A stretch of 64,000 nt of DNA. Source: Thomasclavelia sp. Its GTDB lineage: Bacteria; Bacillota_I; Bacilli_A; Erysipelotrichales; Coprobacillaceae. Shown piece by piece: positions 9,268 through 44,400 of the stretch. The stretch is from positions 1 to 64,000 of the forward strand of contig JAQVWN010000008.1 of the NCBI GenBank assembly GCA_028749475.1. The letters are read 5' to 3'. Made by a program: the position numbers and the translations under genes. How positions within the stretch are numbered: position 1 is the first letter of the stretch; each line of letters opens with the position of its first letter. The notes under the pieces were generated by a model that searched no databases, was not told where the DNA came from, and worked only from the letters and a program-made list of their open reading frames with translations.

Positions 9268-11538
9268 ATGGCTAAAAAAGGAAAAAATAAAAAAAATAAT
9301 AATGAATTAATAACTAATGAATTAAAAATTAGAATCGGCATGGTTATAATAGTTTTTTTAATTGTTGTTTCAGCATTAAAACTAGGAATAATCGGTGAAG
9401 GTTTTAGTTACTTCTTTAACTATTTGTTTGGTTATTTTACAGTTGTAATTTATATAGCAATAATCCTTTTATGTGCTTATATATTTTATTATACTAAGTT
9501 ACCTAGATTTGGTGGACCTAAAGGGGTAGGGATATATTGCTGTAGTATTGGTGTTATTACAATTTTAGCGTCAAATGTTAGTGTTGTTGGAATTGATGCA
9601 ATTACTACTTATACTAAAAATCCTACTCTAGTTAATGGAGGATTAATCGGTTCTATTTTATATGGTGTTTTTAGTGCTTTATTTTCTAAGGGTGGTGCAA
9701 TAGGAGCCGGAGCTATATTTATAATAATTGGATTAGCGTTATTACTAAGTAAGTATTATATAGAGCATAAACAATCACTTCAATTAAAACAAGAAAGAGC
9801 GCAAGTTAATGCGAGTCGTTTTGCAGACTTTTTTAATGGACGGAAAGCAAGAAGAGGAGTTCCACTTCCTGAAAACTATTTTAATGATTTGGATTTTGAT
9901 CCAAGTAGTTCTAAACAATCAAAAAGAAAACCAAAACCTACAAAGGCGAAAATCCATAATACATTTGAAGAAGATGATTCTCTTCCAACAAAATTTGAAT
10001 TTAATGATAATGCGAGTGAACTTGAAATCGTTGACAAGAAGCCGGAAGTTAAATCTAAAGTTGTAAATGGTCCCAAAGCACCTGCTACAAACAAGAATTA
10101 TAAATTACCTACTACTAGATTGTTAAACAGATCTGTAAATAAAAATTCTGCCGGAAACAAAAGCTTTGCTATTGAAAATGCAGATAGATTGACTAATGTA
10201 TTAAAACAATTTGGAGTTAATGCATCAGTTAATGATATATTTATTGGTCCTACTATCACTAAATATGAACTTAAACTATCTACTGGGACTAGAGTAAATC
10301 GTATTATGCAACTTCAAGATGATATAAAACTAGCTTTAGCTAGTAAAGATATTAGGATTGAGGCGCCAATACCTGGTAAGCCAGCTGTTGGTGTTGAAGT
10401 TCCTAATAAAGAAGCTGGAATGGTTACTTTTAGAGATGTTTTTGAAAAGATTCCTGGAAAATATGAATCTAATAAACTGGCTATTCCTCTTGGAAGAGAT
10501 ATTGCTGGTAAAACAATAATTATGGAATTAAACAACATGCCTCACTTATTGATTGCTGGTGCTACTGGCTCTGGGAAATCGGTTTGTGTAAATACTATAA
10601 TTTGTAGTATTTTAATGCGTGCTAAACCAGAAGAAGTTAAGCTTATATTAGTTGACCCTAAAAAAGTTGAATTATCGAATTATAATGGAATACCTCATTT
10701 ACTTGCGCCAGTAGTTACTGATCCTAAAAAAGCAGCTGCTACACTTAGGCAAGTAGTTGCGGAGATGGAAGAACGTTATGATTTATTTGCGGAGGCTAAT
10801 GTTCGTAATATTAAGTCTTACAATGAATATGTCGATAGTCACAATGCTGGAGTTGATGATGAAAACGATAAACTAGCTAGATTGCCTTTTATTGTCGTTA
10901 TTCTAGATGAAGTCGCTGATTTAATGCTTGTAGCTAGTAAAGATGTAGAAGACTGTATTATGCGTCTTGCTCAAATGGCCAGAGCAGCCGGTATTCATAT
11001 GATTGTCGCTACTCAAAGACCTTCAACAGATATTATTACTGGAGTTATTAAAGCTAATATTCCTTCTAGAATTGCTTTTGCAGTATCTTCAAGTATTGAC
11101 TCAAGAACAATTCTTGATACTTCTGGAGCTGAAAAACTTCTAGGTAAAGGTGACATGTTATATTCTCCAATGGGAGATTCATCACCAACAAGAATTCAAG
11201 GAGCGTTTGTTAGTGATCAAGAAGTGGAAAAGATTACTGATTATGTAACTAGACAACAGGCAGCTCAATATGATGAAAAATTTGAAAATGTAAAACCTGG
11301 TGAGAGTGGAATTGGTCCTTCAAGTGATGACTTAGATGATGAGTATGAAGAATGTCGAGCTTTTGTAATTCAAGAACAAAAAGCGTCTACTTCATTACTT
11401 CAAAGACATTTTAGAATTGGTTACAATAAAGCTGCTCGGATTATTGATCAACTTGAAGAAAACGGGGTTATTGGACCGCAACTTGGTTCAAAACCAAGAG
11501 AAGTATATATTCGTGGATACGAAGAGGAAGACATTTAG
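9268..11538 (+). CDS. FtsK/SpoIIIE family DNA translocase
   Basis: A 756-residue septal DNA pump that moves chromosome ends out of the closing division site. About four membrane segments lie in residues 25-165, followed by a charged linker to about 290. The motor domain has Walker A GATGSGKS (431-438), a Walker B-like VVILDEVADL and the family signature RAAGIHMIVATQRPS. A winged-helix gamma domain closes the protein (STSLLQRHFRIGYNKAARIIDQLEENGVIGP), which in relatives reads polar DNA signals and can activate Xer recombination. It lies upstream of ymfF-ymfH, as spoIIIE does in Bacillus. Here it also shares the window with a dif-like site and a Xer gene. FtsK and SpoIIIE cannot be told apart by sequence alone. 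Confidence 0.94.
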   Translation: MAKKGKNKKNNNELITNELKIRIGMVIIVFLIVVSALKLGIIGEGFSYFFNYLFGYFTVVIYIAIILLCAYIFYYTKLPRFGGPKGVGIYCCSIGVITILASNVSVVGIDAITTYTKNPTLVNGGLIGSILYGVFSALFSKGGAIGAGAIFIIIGLALLLSKYYIEHKQSLQLKQERAQVNASRFADFFNGRKARRGVPLPENYFNDLDFDPSSSKQSKRKPKPTKAKIHNTFEEDDSLPTKFEFNDNASELEIVDKKPEVKSKVVNGPKAPATNKNYKLPTTRLLNRSVNKNSAGNKSFAIENADRLTNVLKQFGVNASVNDIFIGPTITKYELKLSTGTRVNRIMQLQDDIKLALASKDIRIEAPIPGKPAVGVEVPNKEAGMVTFRDVFEKIPGKYESNKLAIPLGRDIAGKTIIMELNNMPHLLIAGATGSGKSVCVNTIICSILMRAKPEEVKLILVDPKKVELSNYNGIPHLLAPVVTDPKKAAATLRQVVAEMEERYDLFAEANVRNIKSYNEYVDSHNAGVDDENDKLARLPFIVVILDEVADLMLVASKDVEDCIMRLAQMARAAGIHMIVATQRPSTDIITGVIKANIPSRIAFAVSSSIDSRTILDTSGAEKLLGKGDMLYSPMGDSSPTRIQGAFVSDQEVEKITDYVTRQQAAQYDEKFENVKPGESGIGPSSDDLDDEYEECRAFVIQEQKASTSLLQRHFRIGYNKAARIIDQLEENGVIGPQLGSKPREVYIRGYEEEDI

Positions 11539-18602: not shown

Positions 18603-18630
18603 AAAAGGCAATCTAATGATTGCCTTTTAA
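18601..18630. terminator. Bidirectional terminator between the histidine phosphatase gene and plsY
   Basis: Stem AAAAGGCAATC / GATTGCCTTTT with a TAAT loop, flanked by A and T runs on both sides. It serves two convergent genes and overlaps the stop of plsY. Confidence 0.88.
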
Positions 18631-19238
18631 ATCCAAGATACTTTATTTTCTGTGCCATTCTTAATTTTGTTTATATTTGATTTATGTCTATAAACAATTA
18701 GAAAAACTATTAAAAAATTAATGATTTTTCCTTCAATTGAGATAGGCATTAGTAGTGTCAGTACACCACAACAAATTGCTGCACAAATTGAAGAAAGAGA
18801 GACATATTTAGATATTTTCAATACCAATAAGAATATTACTAAGGCTATTAAAGCTCCAATAGGGTTTATTACCAGGAAGTATCCAAATGATGAAGCAACT
18901 GCTTTACCTCCTTTAAACCCTGCAAATATTGGATAACAGTGCCCAATAATACAACATAAAGCTGCTAGATAAATTATGTCATAGTTTAAACTAAATATTT
19001 TAGCCATTAAACCAGCTAGAACAGTTGTTACAATAGCTTTAGAAGCATCTAACGCTATTACAATAAAACCGGCTTTTTTTCCAAGGACTCTTCCAGCATT
19101 ACTGCCACCTAGATTACCAGAACCATAGTCTCTAACATCAGTATGATAGAAGACTTTTCCAATTACTAAAGCAAAAGGAATTGAGCCATATAAATATGAA
19201 ATAATTAATATTAAAATTGTTAAAATTATCTTTATCAT
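18627..19238 (-). CDS. plsY: Acyl-phosphate:glycerol-3-phosphate acyltransferase
   Basis: Transfers an acyl group from acyl-phosphate to glycerol-3-phosphate, the first step of phospholipid synthesis, in the membrane. The 203-residue protein has about five membrane helices and the PlsY loops: motif 1 YGSIPFALVIGK, then SGNLGGSNAGRVLGKK (motif 2, acyl/phosphate binding), and FKGGKAVASSFG. The ATG at 19238 is chosen because GGTGA lies before it, while the upstream ATG has no ribosome-binding site. It is divergent from parE, the same neighbourhood as plsY-parE-parC in Bacillus but with plsY inverted. Confidence 0.95.
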   Translation of the reverse strand: MIKIILTILILIISYLYGSIPFALVIGKVFYHTDVRDYGSGNLGGSNAGRVLGKKAGFIVIALDASKAIVTTVLAGLMAKIFSLNYDIIYLAALCCIIGHCYPIFAGFKGGKAVASSFGYFLVINPIGALIALVIFLLVLKISKYVSLSSICAAICCGVLTLLMPISIEGKIINFLIVFLIVYRHKSNINKIKNGTENKVSWI

Positions 19239-19288
19239 TTTATCACCAAGAAACATTATAAATAATTATGACTAAAAAGCAATTATCT

Positions 19289-32646: not shown

Positions 32647-33186
32647 TTATTTTAATAATTCTTTATATTCTTCTAAAATAGCTGCATTTTTAATTATGTC
32701 TTTTAGTGGGACTGCTTCAAATGTTTCACTGCTATAATATGTAATAGATAAATTCTTACCATCTATTATGACTATCGCGTATGTACCAAATCCAATTTCT
32801 CCACGATTCATCATTGTGCTGCCGGGATTTATAATATATTTATTATTTTTATGAATAAAGTTTGGAACATGGGTATGGCCATGAAAACAAACATCCAAAT
32901 TGTTCATTTCCATATATTCTAGAATCTCTTCTTCGCCATAATAAATATTAAAATCATTACCATGGGTTATTAAAACATTCATATCTTCTATTTTTTTTAC
33001 TATAAGACGAGGAAAAGTATCTTGATCATGATTGCCATTTACAGTTAAGAATTTCTTTATTAATTCATCATTTGGATCCATTGATGAATCTCCACAATGA
33101 ATTAAGTAATCAAAGTCATTAAAGTTAAAATGATCAAAAATATCGTTATATAAATGAGTATCACTAAGTACAAGTATTTTTTTCAT
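32647..33186 (-). CDS. YfcE/MJ0936-type metallophosphoesterase
   Basis: A 179-residue calcineurin-like phosphodiesterase. The five metal motifs are all present: D-x-H (SDTHLYND), GD (IHCGDSS), GNHD (VNGNHDQD), an isolated His (LITHGND) and GHTH (CFHGHTHVPN), followed by the NPGS turn. Relatives hydrolyse phosphodiesters in vitro with Mn2+; the natural substrate is unknown. A terminator lies between its end and lctP. GAGGTG precedes the ATG on the minus strand. Confidence 0.93.
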   Translation of the reverse strand: MKKILVLSDTHLYNDIFDHFNFNDFDYLIHCGDSSMDPNDELIKKFLTVNGNHDQDTFPRLIVKKIEDMNVLITHGNDFNIYYGEEEILEYMEMNNLDVCFHGHTHVPNFIHKNNKYIINPGSTMMNRGEIGFGTYAIVIIDGKNLSITYYSSETFEAVPLKDIIKNAAILEEYKELLK

Positions 33187-37609: not shown

Positions 37610-37631
37610 ACTAGTATAAACGGAGGATATG

Positions 37632-39044
37632 ATGAAATTAGATGATCGTGAATTACATGAAGAATGTGGCGTTTTTGGAGTATATGGCTATAAAAATGCA
37701 GCATCAATGTGCTACTATGGACTTCATAGTTTACAACATAGAGGTCAAGAAGCTGCCGGAATCATTGTCAGCAATGGTACTAGATTAGCTGTTCAAAAAG
37801 GAGAGGGATTAGTCTCTGAAATATTTGATAATAATAAATTAACTAAAATGACCGGTGAATACGCAATTGGTCATGTTAGATATTCTACTGCTGGTGGAGG
37901 AGGAATAGAAAATGTTCAACCTTTACTATTTAGAACATTTAATGGTTCAATGGGAATTGCTCATAATGGAAATATCGTTAATGCTAATAATTTAAAGAAG
38001 GAGTTAGAGGATAAAGGATCAATATTTAATTCTACTTCTGATACTGAAATACTAGGTCATTTAATGATGCGTGAAAATGGGCGTATGATAGATAGAATAT
38101 GTCATTCATTAGATAAACTAGATGGAGCATTTGCATTTATAATAATGATAGAAAACGCTATGTATGCAGCTAGAGATAAATATGGACTCAGACCTTTATC
38201 AATTGGTCAACTTCCTAATGGAGCTTATATATTTTCATCAGAAACATGTGCATTTGAGGTTATTAATGCAAAATTTGTTAGAGATTTAGAACCTGGTGAA
38301 GTAGTTAGAGTAAAAGATGGTAAATTGTTAAGTACAAAATATACTGATGATATAACTGACAGGATTTGTGCTATGGAGTATATTTACTTTTCAAGACCTG
38401 ATAGTAATTTAGATGGTATAAATGTTCATACGACAAGAAAAAATGCCGGGAAACAGTTATTTAAAGAGGCACCTGTTGATGCTGATTTAGTAATTGGTGT
38501 TCCTGATTCATCATTATCTGCAGCCATTGGGTACTCAGAAGCTAGTGGAATACCGTACGAGATGGGCCTAATTAAGAACAAATATGTTGGTCGTACTTTT
38601 ATCCAACCTACTCAAGAAATGAGAGAGCAGGGGGTTAAAATGAAACTTTCTGCAGTAAGTAGTATTGTCAATGGAAAAAGAGTAATTATGATCGATGATA
38701 GTATTGTTAGAGGAACAACTTCAAAAAGGATCGTAACTTTATTAAAGGAATCTGGAGCAAAAGAAGTTCATGTTAGAATTGCTTCTCCAGCAATTAAGTA
38801 TCCTTGTTTTTATGGGGTAGATACCTCAACTAAAAAAGAATTAATATCTAACAGAATGAGTGTTGATGAATTATGTGATTATATAAACGCCGACTCTTTA
38901 GCTTTTATATCTGAAGATGGTATTAATGATGCAATTCATTACGATAAAGAAAAACATAAATGTGGTTTATGTCTTGCTTGTTTCAATGGTAAATATTTAA
39001 CTGATTTATATGATGAAACTGATAATGTAATGAAAGAAAAATAA
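37632..39044 (+). CDS. purF: Amidophosphoribosyltransferase
   Basis: First committed step of purine synthesis: transfers ammonia from glutamine to PRPP. The protein starts with an 11-residue propeptide before the catalytic Cys12 in HEECGVFGVYG; this depends on using the second of two adjacent ATGs (37632), which is correctly spaced from GGAGG and gives the same propeptide length as Bacillus PurF. The glutaminase loop VRYSTAGGGG and the PRPP-binding VIMIDDSIVRGTTSKR are present. The late CGLCLACF cysteines fit the [4Fe-4S] ligands of Bacillus-type enzymes. Length 470. No other pur gene is in the window. It is the last plus-strand gene before the dif-like site. Confidence 0.96.
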   Translation: MKLDDRELHEECGVFGVYGYKNAASMCYYGLHSLQHRGQEAAGIIVSNGTRLAVQKGEGLVSEIFDNNKLTKMTGEYAIGHVRYSTAGGGGIENVQPLLFRTFNGSMGIAHNGNIVNANNLKKELEDKGSIFNSTSDTEILGHLMMRENGRMIDRICHSLDKLDGAFAFIIMIENAMYAARDKYGLRPLSIGQLPNGAYIFSSETCAFEVINAKFVRDLEPGEVVRVKDGKLLSTKYTDDITDRICAMEYIYFSRPDSNLDGINVHTTRKNAGKQLFKEAPVDADLVIGVPDSSLSAAIGYSEASGIPYEMGLIKNKYVGRTFIQPTQEMREQGVKMKLSAVSSIVNGKRVIMIDDSIVRGTTSKRIVTLLKESGAKEVHVRIASPAIKYPCFYGVDTSTKKELISNRMSVDELCDYINADSLAFISEDGINDAIHYDKEKHKCGLCLACFNGKYLTDLYDETDNVMKEK

Positions 39045-39046
39045 AT

Positions 39047-39078
39047 AAAAAAGGCGAGTATATTATTACTTGCCTTTT
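39047..39078. terminator. Terminator after purF
   Basis: Stem AAAAGGCGAGTA / TACTTGCCTTTT with one G-U pair and a short loop; A-run before and T-run after, so it may work in both directions. Confidence 0.82.
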
Positions 39079-39098
39079 AATATCTTTATATATATCCA

Positions 39099-39126
39099 AG
39101 TTCGCATAATGTATATTATGTAATTT
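39099..39126 (+). other. dif: dif-like site for XerC/XerD chromosome dimer resolution
   Basis: A 28-bp site made of an 11-bp left arm AGTTCGCATAA, a 6-bp centre TGTATA, and an 11-bp right arm TTATGTAATTT. It matches E. coli dif at 23 of 28 positions, including 19 identical bases in a row and the same central hexamer. It matches B. subtilis dif at 21 of 28. The inner arms are inverted repeats (CATAAT and ATTATG). It lies in the 124-bp gap between purF (last plus-strand gene) and the first minus-strand gene, where gene direction converges. A Xer recombinase is encoded 1.5 kb to the right. The comparisons are from memory of the published sites. Confidence 0.85.
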
Positions 39127-39168: not shown

Positions 39169-39444
39169 TTAAACGATTAAATTATTAATTGTTGCTATTG
39201 TTATTAATGCCATTAACATTACACCAATTAGAGTTAAAAATAGAAATATCTTCTTATTCTTTTCTTTTTGATATCCTTTAAATAAAGCTAATGTGCTAGA
39301 TAACATAAGAGCTAAACTAATAATATAAAATAACACTAATAAAGGAATACTTTTTGTGGAGATTGCAATATAGTACATAAAACCAGCAAAAGTATATGAA
39401 CATAATGATATAGTTAATAATCTTTTATTTTCTTCTGTTTGCAT
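39169..39444 (-). CDS. Small three-helix membrane protein of unknown function
   Basis: A 91-residue hydrophobic protein with three predicted membrane segments (about 10-28, 32-55 and 66-88), separated by a KGYQKEKNKK basic loop, so the loop is probably cytoplasmic. A strong AGAAGGAG precedes the ATG, which supports a real gene. It is the gene closest to the dif-like site on the right side, 43 bp away, and lies 26 bp downstream of deoB, probably the last gene of that operon. No family recognised. Confidence 0.7.
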   Translation of the reverse strand: MQTEENKRLLTISLCSYTFAGFMYYIAISTKSIPLLVLFYIISLALMLSSTLALFKGYQKEKNKKIFLFLTLIGVMLMALITIATINNLIV

Positions 39445-39470: not shown

Positions 39471-40646
39471 TTACACTAATTGATCCAATATTGAATCACT
39501 TTCACAATTGTATACAATTTTAAAGTTCTCTACAATTGTTTTGCCTATAGTCATAAAACCGTTCATATCAGATAACTGTTTATGATTAATCATCTGTTTT
39601 GAATAAACTAATAATGGAACTTGTTCTCTTGTATGATCAGTACCTTTAAATGTTGGATCATTTCCGTGATCAGCCGTAATCATAAGTAAATCATCATTTT
39701 TTAATTTTGATATTAATACGGCCAATTGTTTGTCAAATTCATCGATTGCTTTTCCATAACCGATAGGATCTCTTCTATGACCATATAAAGAATCAAAATC
39801 AACAAGATTTGTAAATACTAATCCATTAAAGTCCTGGTTTGTTAGATCAATTGTTTTATTCATACCATCTAGATTACTAACTGTATGAATTGATTTTGTA
39901 ATGCCTTGACTAGAAAATATGTCGTTTATCTTTCCAATAGCGATAACATCTTTGTTATTATCTTTTAAAGCATCTAGAATTGTCTTTTTAAATGGTTTTA
40001 AGGCATAATCATGACGATTGCTGGTTCTAACAAACTCCCCTACTTTTGTTCCTTTATATGGCCTAGCAATGATTCTTCCAACTCGATATTCTGGCCTATT
40101 TGCCATTTCACGAGCAATTTCACAGGCGTTGTAAAGTTCTTCTAAAGGTATTATATCTTCATTTGCTGCAATTTGAAATACAGAATCAGCTGAAGTATAT
40201 ACTATCCAATCGCCAGTTCTGATTTGATGTTCTCCGTACATATCTAAGATTTTTGTTCCACTACAAGCAATATTTCCAATTGTTTTACGATGAGTTCGAT
40301 TTTCAAATTCCTCAATAAATTCTTTAGGAAAGCCTTCATCCGTAAATGTTTTCATAGGAGTATTAGAATTTAAACCCATCATTTCCCAATGACCTGTTAA
40401 AGTATCTTTACTTGCAGATATTTCATTTAATCGTAGACAATAGCCTAAAGAGAATGGCTTTTCAATGATATTTGATAAATTGTCTATTATTCCTAAACCT
40501 AATTTAGTTAAATTAGTAATGTTCAATTTATAATTATCAGAAATGTGTTTTAGAGTATTACTGTTTTCGTCGTTAAATTCTTTAGCATCTATGGCGTTTC
40601 CTATTCCCATAGAGTCACAAACAATTAAAAATATTCTTTTAAACAT
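39471..40646 (-). CDS. deoB: Phosphopentomutase
   Basis: Interconverts ribose-1-phosphate and ribose-5-phosphate (and the deoxy forms) in nucleoside salvage. The 391-residue alkaline-phosphatase-fold enzyme starts FLIVCDSMGIGNA, with metal Asp11, and has the phosphorylated Thr region KDTLTGHWEMMG (80-91). The C-terminal metal sites are in MITADHGNDPTFKGTDHTREQVPLLVYS. Its start shares one base with the xerD stop (TAATG). The order xerD-deoB is also found in Bacillus. Coupling to purF across the dif site is not implied. Confidence 0.96.
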   Translation of the reverse strand: MFKRIFLIVCDSMGIGNAIDAKEFNDENSNTLKHISDNYKLNITNLTKLGLGIIDNLSNIIEKPFSLGYCLRLNEISASKDTLTGHWEMMGLNSNTPMKTFTDEGFPKEFIEEFENRTHRKTIGNIACSGTKILDMYGEHQIRTGDWIVYTSADSVFQIAANEDIIPLEELYNACEIAREMANRPEYRVGRIIARPYKGTKVGEFVRTSNRHDYALKPFKKTILDALKDNNKDVIAIGKINDIFSSQGITKSIHTVSNLDGMNKTIDLTNQDFNGLVFTNLVDFDSLYGHRRDPIGYGKAIDEFDKQLAVLISKLKNDDLLMITADHGNDPTFKGTDHTREQVPLLVYSKQMINHKQLSDMNGFMTIGKTIVENFKIVYNCESDSILDQLV

Positions 40647-41551
40647 TATTTATCTCCTTTTGTATTTCTAGGATGAAATTTATTATAGTCAGCAACCATT
40701 TTTTTATTTGAAACATGAGTGTATATCGTTGTAGTACTAATATCACTATGGCCTAATAATTCTTGAATTGATCTTAAATCAGCTCCATTTTCAAGCAAAT
40801 GAGTTGCAAATGTATGTCTAAGTGTATGCGGTGTAATATGTTTCGTAATATTAGTGTTATTGCAGATCTTTTCTAAAATTTCATAGAAATTTTCTCTTGA
40901 GAGTGGTTCCATTTTTTTAGTTAAAAATAAATAATTTGTATTATTAAAATCCACAAAATCTCTTCGATAGTTGTTAATATACATTCTCAGTAATTCACAA
41001 ATATAATCAGATAAAGGAAGGAGTCTTTCTTTGTCGCCCTTACCTATTATCTTAATATACTCCATATTTACATTCACGTCCTGTAATTTGATGTTTACAA
41101 GTTCAGAAACTCTTATTCCCGTTGCATATAATAACTCAACCATTACTCTATTACGGCAACTATAATAATCTTCTATTTTTATTGATTCCAATAACTTAGA
41201 TATTTCTTCATAACTTAAAACTACTGGTAGTTTTTTATCTTGTTTTGGCATATCTATTTTAACCATTGGATTTACATTTATGATATTTTCTTTCATTAGA
41301 AATTTAAAATAGTTTCTAAAAGATACAATCTTTCTTGAAATAGAAGCTTTAGATAGCGTTTTAATGCTTCTTAGATACGAATTTATGTCATCAGCAGTAA
41401 TTGACTCAATTTTGCTAATTTGTCGCTTAGATTGCAAATAATTGCTTAAATGAATAACATCGTTTAAATATGCTTTTGTAGTATTCTTAGAGGATACTTT
41501 TTCAACTAATAAATATTCTTTATATTCTCTAATTCCATCAATGTGTCTCAT
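40646..41551 (-). CDS. xerD: Tyrosine recombinase XerD/XerC-like
   Basis: A 301-residue site-specific recombinase for chromosome dimer resolution. An N-terminal SAM-like DNA-binding domain (1-100) precedes the catalytic domain. The active-site set is complete: Arg147 (ATGIRVSEL), Lys171 (GKGDKER), His242 and Arg245 (PHTLRHTFATHLL), His268 (LLGHSDIST) and the nucleophile Tyr277 (TTIYTHV). Its position before deoB matches Bacillus xerD. It overlaps dinB by 4 nt (ATGA). A dif-like target lies 1.5 kb downstream. XerC or XerD identity rests on context; a second Xer gene is expected elsewhere. Confidence 0.92.
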   Translation of the reverse strand: MRHIDGIREYKEYLLVEKVSSKNTTKAYLNDVIHLSNYLQSKRQISKIESITADDINSYLRSIKTLSKASISRKIVSFRNYFKFLMKENIINVNPMVKIDMPKQDKKLPVVLSYEEISKLLESIKIEDYYSCRNRVMVELLYATGIRVSELVNIKLQDVNVNMEYIKIIGKGDKERLLPLSDYICELLRMYINNYRRDFVDFNNTNYLFLTKKMEPLSRENFYEILEKICNNTNITKHITPHTLRHTFATHLLENGADLRSIQELLGHSDISTTTIYTHVSNKKMVADYNKFHPRNTKGDK

Positions 41552-42726
41552 TTTTTATCCTTCATAATACTAGATGCAGTAGTTAAAACATTACTATTAA
41601 ATTCATTGTTCAAATCATTAATAATTTCATTAATATTGCTTTTTTCTATTTCATCATTTGTTTTGTCAAAAATACTAATTTGTTTTAACACTTCATTTCT
41701 AGGTAAAAGATTACTTAACTCTATTGATATTAGGCGAATCTTTTGATCTAGATACATTTCATCAAATAACATCATAACATTACCTAAGATTTTATCAAAA
41801 TCTATAGTATAAGAACCAAGTTTTTTTTGATGAGATTTTGATTTTTTATCATATTTTAATGTTAAAGAGACAGTGTTACAAACAAGATTATTGGAACTGG
41901 CTCTATTTACACAGTTTCTTGTTAGATCACTTATAACCCTAGATAATACATCAATATTAGATTCATCGTATTCAAAAGTAGTTGCATTAGAAATGGATTT
42001 ATTGTCGGTACTTTCAGTAATTAGTTTACTGTTATCAATACCATTAGCGTGGCGATATGCGATTAATGCTCCATTACCCAATACTGCTTTTAGATTAGTA
42101 TAATTATTTTTAGAGGCAATATCACCAATTATATTAAAACCTGCTAAATGTAGTTTTGGAGCAGTTTGTTTGCCTATTCCAAACATTTTTTCTATTTCAA
42201 TTGGCCATAAAATTTCTCTAAAATTATTCTTTGTAAGAATTGTAATTCCATGAGGTTTTTTAATGTCACTAGCCATTTTAGATAAGAATTTGTTTGGAGA
42301 TACTCCAATTGAACAAGATAATTGGAGTTTGTTTAAAACAGTATCTTGAATAGTTTTAGCTAAAGTTAAAGGACTAACCTTATTATTTACAATATACTCA
42401 GTTACATCCATATAGCATTCATCAATACTTGCAATTTGGATCTTGTTAGTAAATGTTTCAAGATAAGTAAAGAACTTATTGGAAAGTTCTTTATACAAAT
42501 CATAGTGAACAGGCACAACCACAAGGTTTTTACACAATTCTTTTGCTTTATAAAGAGGCATAGCTGAATGAATACCAAACTTTCTAGCTTCATAGCTTGC
42601 CGTAGAAACTATAGCCCTTCTACTGGTACCGGCAACAACTAATGGTTTACCTTTTAAAGAAGGATCTCTAATAATTTCACAACTAGCAAAAAATGCATCT
42701 AAATCAATATGAAATATAATTTGCAT
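41548..42726 (-). CDS. dinB: DNA polymerase IV (Y-family)
   Basis: A 392-residue translesion polymerase. Palm acidic residues are Asp8 (FHIDLDAFFASCE) and Asp102-Glu103 (SIDECYMDV). The fingers motif STASYEARKFGIHSAMPLYKA and the thumb helix-hairpin-helix MFGIGKQTAPKL are present, and the little-finger domain follows to about 345. The last 30 residues form an extra tail without a clear beta-clamp motif, though KQISIFD (around 360) resembles a clamp-binding peptide. A strong AAGGAGGA precedes the ATG. It lies between recN and xerD in what looks like a DNA-repair run. Confidence 0.94.
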   Translation of the reverse strand: MQIIFHIDLDAFFASCEIIRDPSLKGKPLVVAGTSRRAIVSTASYEARKFGIHSAMPLYKAKELCKNLVVVPVHYDLYKELSNKFFTYLETFTNKIQIASIDECYMDVTEYIVNNKVSPLTLAKTIQDTVLNKLQLSCSIGVSPNKFLSKMASDIKKPHGITILTKNNFREILWPIEIEKMFGIGKQTAPKLHLAGFNIIGDIASKNNYTNLKAVLGNGALIAYRHANGIDNSKLITESTDNKSISNATTFEYDESNIDVLSRVISDLTRNCVNRASSNNLVCNTVSLTLKYDKKSKSHQKKLGSYTIDFDKILGNVMMLFDEMYLDQKIRLISIELSNLLPRNEVLKQISIFDKTNDEIEKSNINEIINDLNNEFNSNVLTTASSIMKDKK

Positions 42727-42744
42727 AAGATCCTCCTTTATTAA

Positions 42745-44400
42745 TTAATTCTTTGCTCTAGCTTCTTCAATCAATTGTTTTGCATGCGATAATGATTCAT
42801 CAGTTATCTTTGTACCTGATATTAATCTAGCTATTTGTTTAATACTATCTTCATCATTCAATTTAGAAACACTTACTGAAGTATTACTAGTAGTATTAGA
42901 TTTAGAAATTAGGTAATGATGATCATAGAAAGCAGCTACCTGAGCTAAATGAGTTATACATATAATTTGATTGTTTGTAGCTAATTCTTTCATTTTATTT
43001 CCCATACTAAATGCTACTTTACCAGAGACACCAGTATCAGCTTCGTCAAATATCATTGTTTGATTAATCAATGGATTATTAAACAATACTTTAATAGCCA
43101 TCATAATACGAGAAACTTCTCCTCCAGAAGCAATGTCTTTTAGAGGCTTTAATGATTCTCCAGGATTAGTACTAATCATAAACTTAACATCATCATAACC
43201 ATTAATATTTGGTTCAACTTCCTTGATGATGATATCGAAGACTACATTTTTAAGATATAAAGAGGATAATTCTTTTGTAATCTGCTTTATAAATGTTTCT
43301 TTTCCCTTAATTCGATTATTATGTATTTTTTTAGCAAGGCTATCTAAATTATCTTTTAAAGAAGATAATTCCTTATTTAAATCATTAATGTATTGTTCTC
43401 TATTAGAAAAATTATCGATTTTTTTCATTAATTCTTCTTTCGATTCTAAAATGGTTTCAACAGAATTACCATACTTTCTTTTTAAAGTATTAAATGAAGT
43501 AATAGTATCAAATATTTCTTCTTCTCGTTCTTTAGAAAAAGATAAATTATATTTATATGAATCTATCTCATTATCTATGTCTGTTAATGCATAATATATA
43601 TCGTTGATTTTTTCATCTAATTCTTTAAAATCCTCGTTATCAATATTATCTAAATAGCTGATTGCTTCTTTTAGATTAGATAAAACTCTTGCTTCCATTA
43701 AACTATGATAACTATTCAATAATTCATTGTTTTTGGCTAAATCTTTTAGATTTTTTCTTTCCTCTAAAAGCTTATCTTCATCAAAATTATCAAAATCAAA
43801 ACTTTCAATCTCTTTTAATTGAGTATTATAAAAGTCTAATTGTTCATCTGACATTTCTTCACTAATCAAATTAGACAATTCTTTTTCCTTTGATTTGTAT
43901 TTATTAAAGATATCCAAGTATTCTTTTTTCAAATTGGCCATTGATTTTCCAATATAATTATCTAAATAACCAATATGCAATTTTTCATTAAATAGTAATT
44001 GGTTATCAAATTGATTATGAATATCTATTAAATTACTCATTATAATTTTTAACAAAGATAATGACACAGTTCGATAATTAATTTTAATGGTAGTGTTACC
44101 ATTTCCGTTCATTTTTTTAGATACAATTAGTTGATTATCATCTAAATTAATATCATTTTCTTTTAATAAATTAATAGTATTTATATTATCAATATAAAAA
44201 TTACCTTCAATAAAGAAATAATCTTTATTATCTTTAATTAAATCAGTATTGCTTCTATTACCACTTAATTGCCCTATTGCATCAATAACTATTGATTTAC
44301 CAGCTCCAGTTTCACCACTTAATACATTCATACCATCAGAAAAATCAATTTCTAATTTATCGATAATTGTAAAGTTTTCTATATATAAACTGTTTAACAT
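42745..44400 (-). CDS. recN: DNA repair protein RecN
   Basis: SMC-like ATPase that acts early at double-strand breaks. Length 551, typical for RecN. Walker A GETGAGKS is at 29-36 and the ABC signature is near LKDIASGGEVSRIMMAIK. Walker B with TMIFDEADTGVSGKVA follows, then the ITHLAQVAAFYDHHYLISK D/H-loop. A long coiled-coil arm spans about 150-380. It lies 6 bp after tlyA, as in Bacillus where argR sits between them; here argR is absent. Confidence 0.96.
   Translation of the reverse strand: MLNSLYIENFTIIDKLEIDFSDGMNVLSGETGAGKSIVIDAIGQLSGNRSNTDLIKDNKDYFFIEGNFYIDNINTINLLKENDINLDDNQLIVSKKMNGNGNTTIKINYRTVSLSLLKIIMSNLIDIHNQFDNQLLFNEKLHIGYLDNYIGKSMANLKKEYLDIFNKYKSKEKELSNLISEEMSDEQLDFYNTQLKEIESFDFDNFDEDKLLEERKNLKDLAKNNELLNSYHSLMEARVLSNLKEAISYLDNIDNEDFKELDEKINDIYYALTDIDNEIDSYKYNLSFSKEREEEIFDTITSFNTLKRKYGNSVETILESKEELMKKIDNFSNREQYINDLNKELSSLKDNLDSLAKKIHNNRIKGKETFIKQITKELSSLYLKNVVFDIIIKEVEPNINGYDDVKFMISTNPGESLKPLKDIASGGEVSRIMMAIKVLFNNPLINQTMIFDEADTGVSGKVAFSMGNKMKELATNNQIICITHLAQVAAFYDHHYLISKSNTTSNTSVSVSKLNDEDSIKQIARLISGTKITDESLSHAKQLIEEARAKN

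Follow-up and report, generated by a model that had tools for sequence, protein, structure and literature searches.

Joined circular chromosomes are untangled by bacteria at a site known as dif. The present locus raises the question of whether a 28-bp sequence between oppositely oriented genes of Thomasclavelia sp. is such a site, and how the recombinase gene close to it should be understood. The window, i.e. the whole stretch of DNA that was analysed, comprises 64,000 nucleotides; an earlier note had proposed from its letters that a dif site marks the replication terminus here. Sequence evidence indicates that the site is almost certainly the dif of this low-GC Firmicute's chromosome (the organism probably belonging to the family Coprobacillaceae, order Erysipelotrichales), at which XerCD and FtsK would resolve chromosome dimers. 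No earlier description of this lineage's dif was found in the literature searched. The relevant features are the following.

9268-11538, plus strand: ftsK/spoIIIE DNA translocase, 756 aa, with FtsK_alpha, FtsK_SpoIIIE and FtsK_gamma domains
37629-39044, plus strand: purF (TIGR01134), the last gene of the plus-strand replichore, ending 55 bp before dif
39049-39078, plus strand: intrinsic terminator downstream of purF whose 5' side is A-rich
39099-39126, plus strand: dif site, consisting of XerC arm AGTTCGCATAA (39099-39109), centre TGTATA (39110-39115) and XerD arm TTATGTAATTT (39116-39126)
39169-39444, minus strand: small ORF of 91 aa, conserved in a few close relatives
39471-40646, minus strand: deoB, phosphopentomutase, which in most relatives separates dif from xerD
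40646-41551, minus strand: xerD, tyrosine recombinase of 301 aa with intact RVSEL, HTLRH, LGH and IYTH motifs
41548-44400, minus strand: dinB and recN, which continue the conserved terminus block

The site has the 11-6-11 layout of dif. Its identities to the sites of E. coli (23 of 28 positions) and B. subtilis (21 of 28) were confirmed as first proposed. The proposal that all three share the same centre holds in part; TGTATA equals the E. coli centre, whereas the B. subtilis string used here has TATATA. In 100 simulated windows matched to this one in dinucleotide content, the top match to E. coli dif ranged from 18 to 22 positions, and 23 was never reached. With up to three mismatches allowed, the site occurs once in the window and once in the whole draft genome (1,838,230 bases, or 1.84 Mb, in 43 contigs; 97.9% complete), and no better match exists in either. 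A dif profile, built from 14 distinct sites (this one and those of relatives), scores 43.4 at the site versus 3.9 at the second-best place in the window.

With a short and AT-rich core, AATGTATATT, and a genomic GC content of 27-30%, the site could in principle be a chance palindrome, for example a divergent terminator or an operator. This is exceedingly improbable. Exactly one match (up to three mismatches) is present in 16 of 40 relatives, and a reversed-control sequence searched at the same threshold had no match in any of the 40. Across the 14 distinct sites, 19 of the 28 columns are invariant, a figure that is partly circular as evidence alone because the sites were picked within three mismatches. 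Of the order's 118 genomes, 111 give a profile match at E up to 0.1; matches below about 20 bits are doubtful. This conservation and the positions of dif in closed genomes (see below) refute a chance palindrome. The place is also kept: in close relatives, dif lies between the purF side and deoB-xerD, with the left flank far less conserved than the deoB-xerD side.

The link to the replication terminus is borne out by several observations. The cumulative GC skew of the window has its maximum at 39,209, only 97 bp from the dif centre. Gene orientation flips at dif as the earlier note had described, purF ending at 39,044 on the plus strand and an unbroken minus-strand run beginning at 39,169; for all convincing genes, this run extends to the end of the contig at 80,725. 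Genes to the left are mostly on the plus strand, yet those at 145-2107, 18627-19256 and 32647-33186 are real and lie on the minus strand. Elsewhere in the same genome, the contig bearing dnaA has a matching skew minimum just beside this gene. Since this genome is a draft, the position of dif opposite oriC in the organism itself is deduced from relatives and from the skew turnover. A two-armed 28-bp site, in single copy, at a skew switch and at a position kept in relatives, is a canonical dif, and the site is ordinary in kind: the dif of a low-GC Firmicute at its terminus. Replication forks have been argued to meet near dif and not at dif (Kono et al. 2011, PMC3025954); the statement that the site marks the terminus should thus be read as dif lying in the terminus region. 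Among octamers oriented towards dif (KOPS/SRS search, 80 kb), A/G-rich coding bias predominated; the motifs known from E. coli and B. subtilis are very rare in these 80 kb, too few to judge.

Closed genomes of relatives allow the position to be observed directly. In 13 of 14, the circular distance between dnaA and dif is 0.459-0.498 of the circle, for which the chance would be about 1e-13 if the genomes were independent. In closed genome G003, sampled at 20 points round the circle, the skew is positive on the arc that runs from dnaA to dif and negative on the arc leading back to dnaA, its sign thus differing between the two sides of dif. The exception among the 14 is G070, in which a strong dif match (G070:C1:1574986) lies only 0.16 (0.161) of the circle from dnaA. 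There too, the skew turns from rising to falling no more than about 4 kb from dif; a rearranged or misassembled chromosome is possible. With the terminus fixed for this lineage, draft assemblies become easier to orient.

The machinery expected to act at the site is encoded by intact genes. The Xer gene noted earlier at 1.5 kb from dif proves to be xerD by the NCBIfam equivalog cut-off: its product scores 333.8 bits with TIGR02225 (cut-off 329.6) and 312.5 with the XerC model, below the latter's cut-off of 335.15. The second recombinase (G000:C41) is XerC, scoring 346.6 bits, above the XerC cut-off and below that for XerD; its gene lies away from dif in the context topA-trmFO-xerC-rpsB-tsf. The two are separate, distinct genes, each with catalytic residues. 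The FtsK gene reported at about 28 kb from dif is likewise present and contains a gamma domain (PF09397, 96.8 bits). Judged from these genes, the locus belongs to a predicted classical two-recombinase XerCD/dif/FtsK system. A single-recombinase module of the XerS/difSL or XerH/difH type was also considered and rejected, because both XerC and XerD exist and the site is canonical.

A chromosome dimer arises from an odd number of crossovers. If XerC and XerD binding, the order of strand exchange and the control by FtsK follow those of E. coli and B. subtilis, the septal translocase FtsK would pump the terminus of such a dimer towards dif. The gamma domain of FtsK would then activate XerD, and strand exchange at the 6-bp centre, by XerD first and XerC second, would restore two monomers. 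The terminator sits between purF and dif, and minus-strand transcripts from the deoB side would therefore cross dif before reaching it; from its A-rich 5' side, it probably ends these transcripts as well.

Comparison with known systems brings out what is peculiar about the locus. The E. coli XerCD/dif/FtsK system shares the 28-bp 11-6-11 site, the TGTATA centre, separate XerC and XerD proteins, the FtsK gamma domain and the location at the terminus. Five bases of E. coli dif differ from the site described here, and E. coli xerD is located far from dif, in contrast to the 1.5 kb found in this genome. The RipX/CodV/dif/SpoIIIE system of B. subtilis resembles the present one in gene context: codV lies in a topA-trmFO-like setting and ripX next to drm, recalling topA-trmFO-xerC and deoB-xerD here. 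B. subtilis ripX is far from dif, whereas deoB-xerD adjoins it in this genome. A recombinase gene adjoining dif is found in XerS/difSL of streptococci and lactococci and in XerH/difH of epsilon-proteobacteria (PMC5357621, PMC2731167). These resemble the present locus in having a recombinase gene beside dif; they differ in relying on one recombinase and atypical sites, unlike the canonical 28 bp and two recombinases here.

Proximity of xerD and dif is widespread among relatives. Among the family's genomes whose dif scores 22.9 bits or more (n = 34), 30 have a xer gene 1.46-2.6 kb from dif, on the XerD-arm side and convergent in every linked case. In the order's second family, a xer gene occurs within 5.5 kb of dif in 31 of 54 genomes and within 15 kb in 41, all linked genes again being convergent and on the XerD-arm side; 10 of the 54 have no xer gene on the contig of dif. 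Six further families of the class (f7, f9, f10, f11, f16 and f18) have the same arrangement at 0.65-4.5 kb, taking every genome with dif and xerD on one contig, and in three others (f12, f13 and f17) dif and xerD are 59-236 kb apart. The class also includes genomes of 0.7-1.2 Mb, resembling mycoplasmas, without a strong XerD match. deoB usually lies between dif and xerD; it was not found there in G126, G145, G128 and G127, in which xerD is still 0.65-1.5 kb away. For a genome of about 2 Mb carrying two xer genes, the chance of one lying within 5 kb of dif is about 1%.

According to Kono et al. 2011 (PMC3025954), xerC usually lies close to dif and xerD close to the origin across bacteria. Linked modules are described for XerS/difSL and XerH/difH, canonical systems having scattered genes (Carnoy and Roten 2009, PMC2731167). 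The literature searched contained no account of dif-xerD linkage in a two-recombinase system. Keeping xerD beside dif is unusual for systems with two recombinases. The linkage is most simply explained as an ancestral arrangement that was never broken up, because terminus-centred rearrangements do not separate dif from the genes close to it. Selection for dif and xerD as a module is possible; the broader proposition, that two-recombinase systems across Bacilli-related lineages keep xerD attached to dif (XerD-arm side, convergent) as a selected module, is a tentative one that we regard as rather doubtful. Were it true, XerS/difSL and XerH/difH may owe their form as modules to a general advantage that extends beyond single-recombinase systems, such as recombinase supplied locally where replication ends or the joint transfer of enzyme and site. 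The linkage renders testable whether recombinase-site proximity is selected in two-recombinase systems, and it provides a usable terminus marker across the lineages in which it is kept.

Two relatives have peculiar arrangements at dif. In G045 (L099:6457-6484; G045:C1:82456), dif is almost perfectly palindromic, AGTTCGCATAATGTATATTATGCGACTT, each of its arms being of the XerC type; xerD ends about 27 bp away from it, and the genome has three Xer-type genes. In G041 (L098:7302-12856; G041:C3), the orientation of dif is inverted with respect to the neighbouring genes. Encoded beside it are two large proteins that match tyrosine recombinases weakly, and after them comes a third large ORF; the group resembles a recombinase-in-trio element inserted there.

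IMEX att and cer-like sites resemble dif; an Xer-dependent plasmid or phage attachment site is hence another conceivable identity for the sequence, the more so as an inovirus-like element does occupy dif in one relative (G061). For the window this is very unlikely. There are no mobile genes beside the site, housekeeping genes occupy both flanks, and the sequence is single-copy, at the skew peak and beside xerD in most of the family, so that synteny and skew largely refute an attachment site in favour of the chromosomal dif. The element in G061, a closed genome, is located as follows.

L095:7393-12239 (G061:C1:1605392-1610238): inovirus-like element inserted exactly at dif

Its 4,819 bp are bordered on one side by an intact dif and on the other by a further copy of XerC arm and centre, ACTTCGCATAATGTATA, which continues into a divergent right arm and adjoins purF; the flanks are thus 17-bp direct repeats (XerC arm plus centre). 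The element encodes a G2P-type rolling-circle Rep, a weakly Zot-like ATPase and small proteins that are probably membrane proteins, and no integrase gene was found in it. IMG/VR contains a predicted virus, likewise of exactly 4,819 bp, that is identical to it. Inovirus-type integration through host XerCD is described for XacF1 (PMC5666396). By analogy, the G061 element fits an inovirus-type element integrated via host XerCD, and this natural insertion therefore supports an active dif in the family. A dif-like sequence in opposite orientation is present about 240 bp inside the element (L095:7657).
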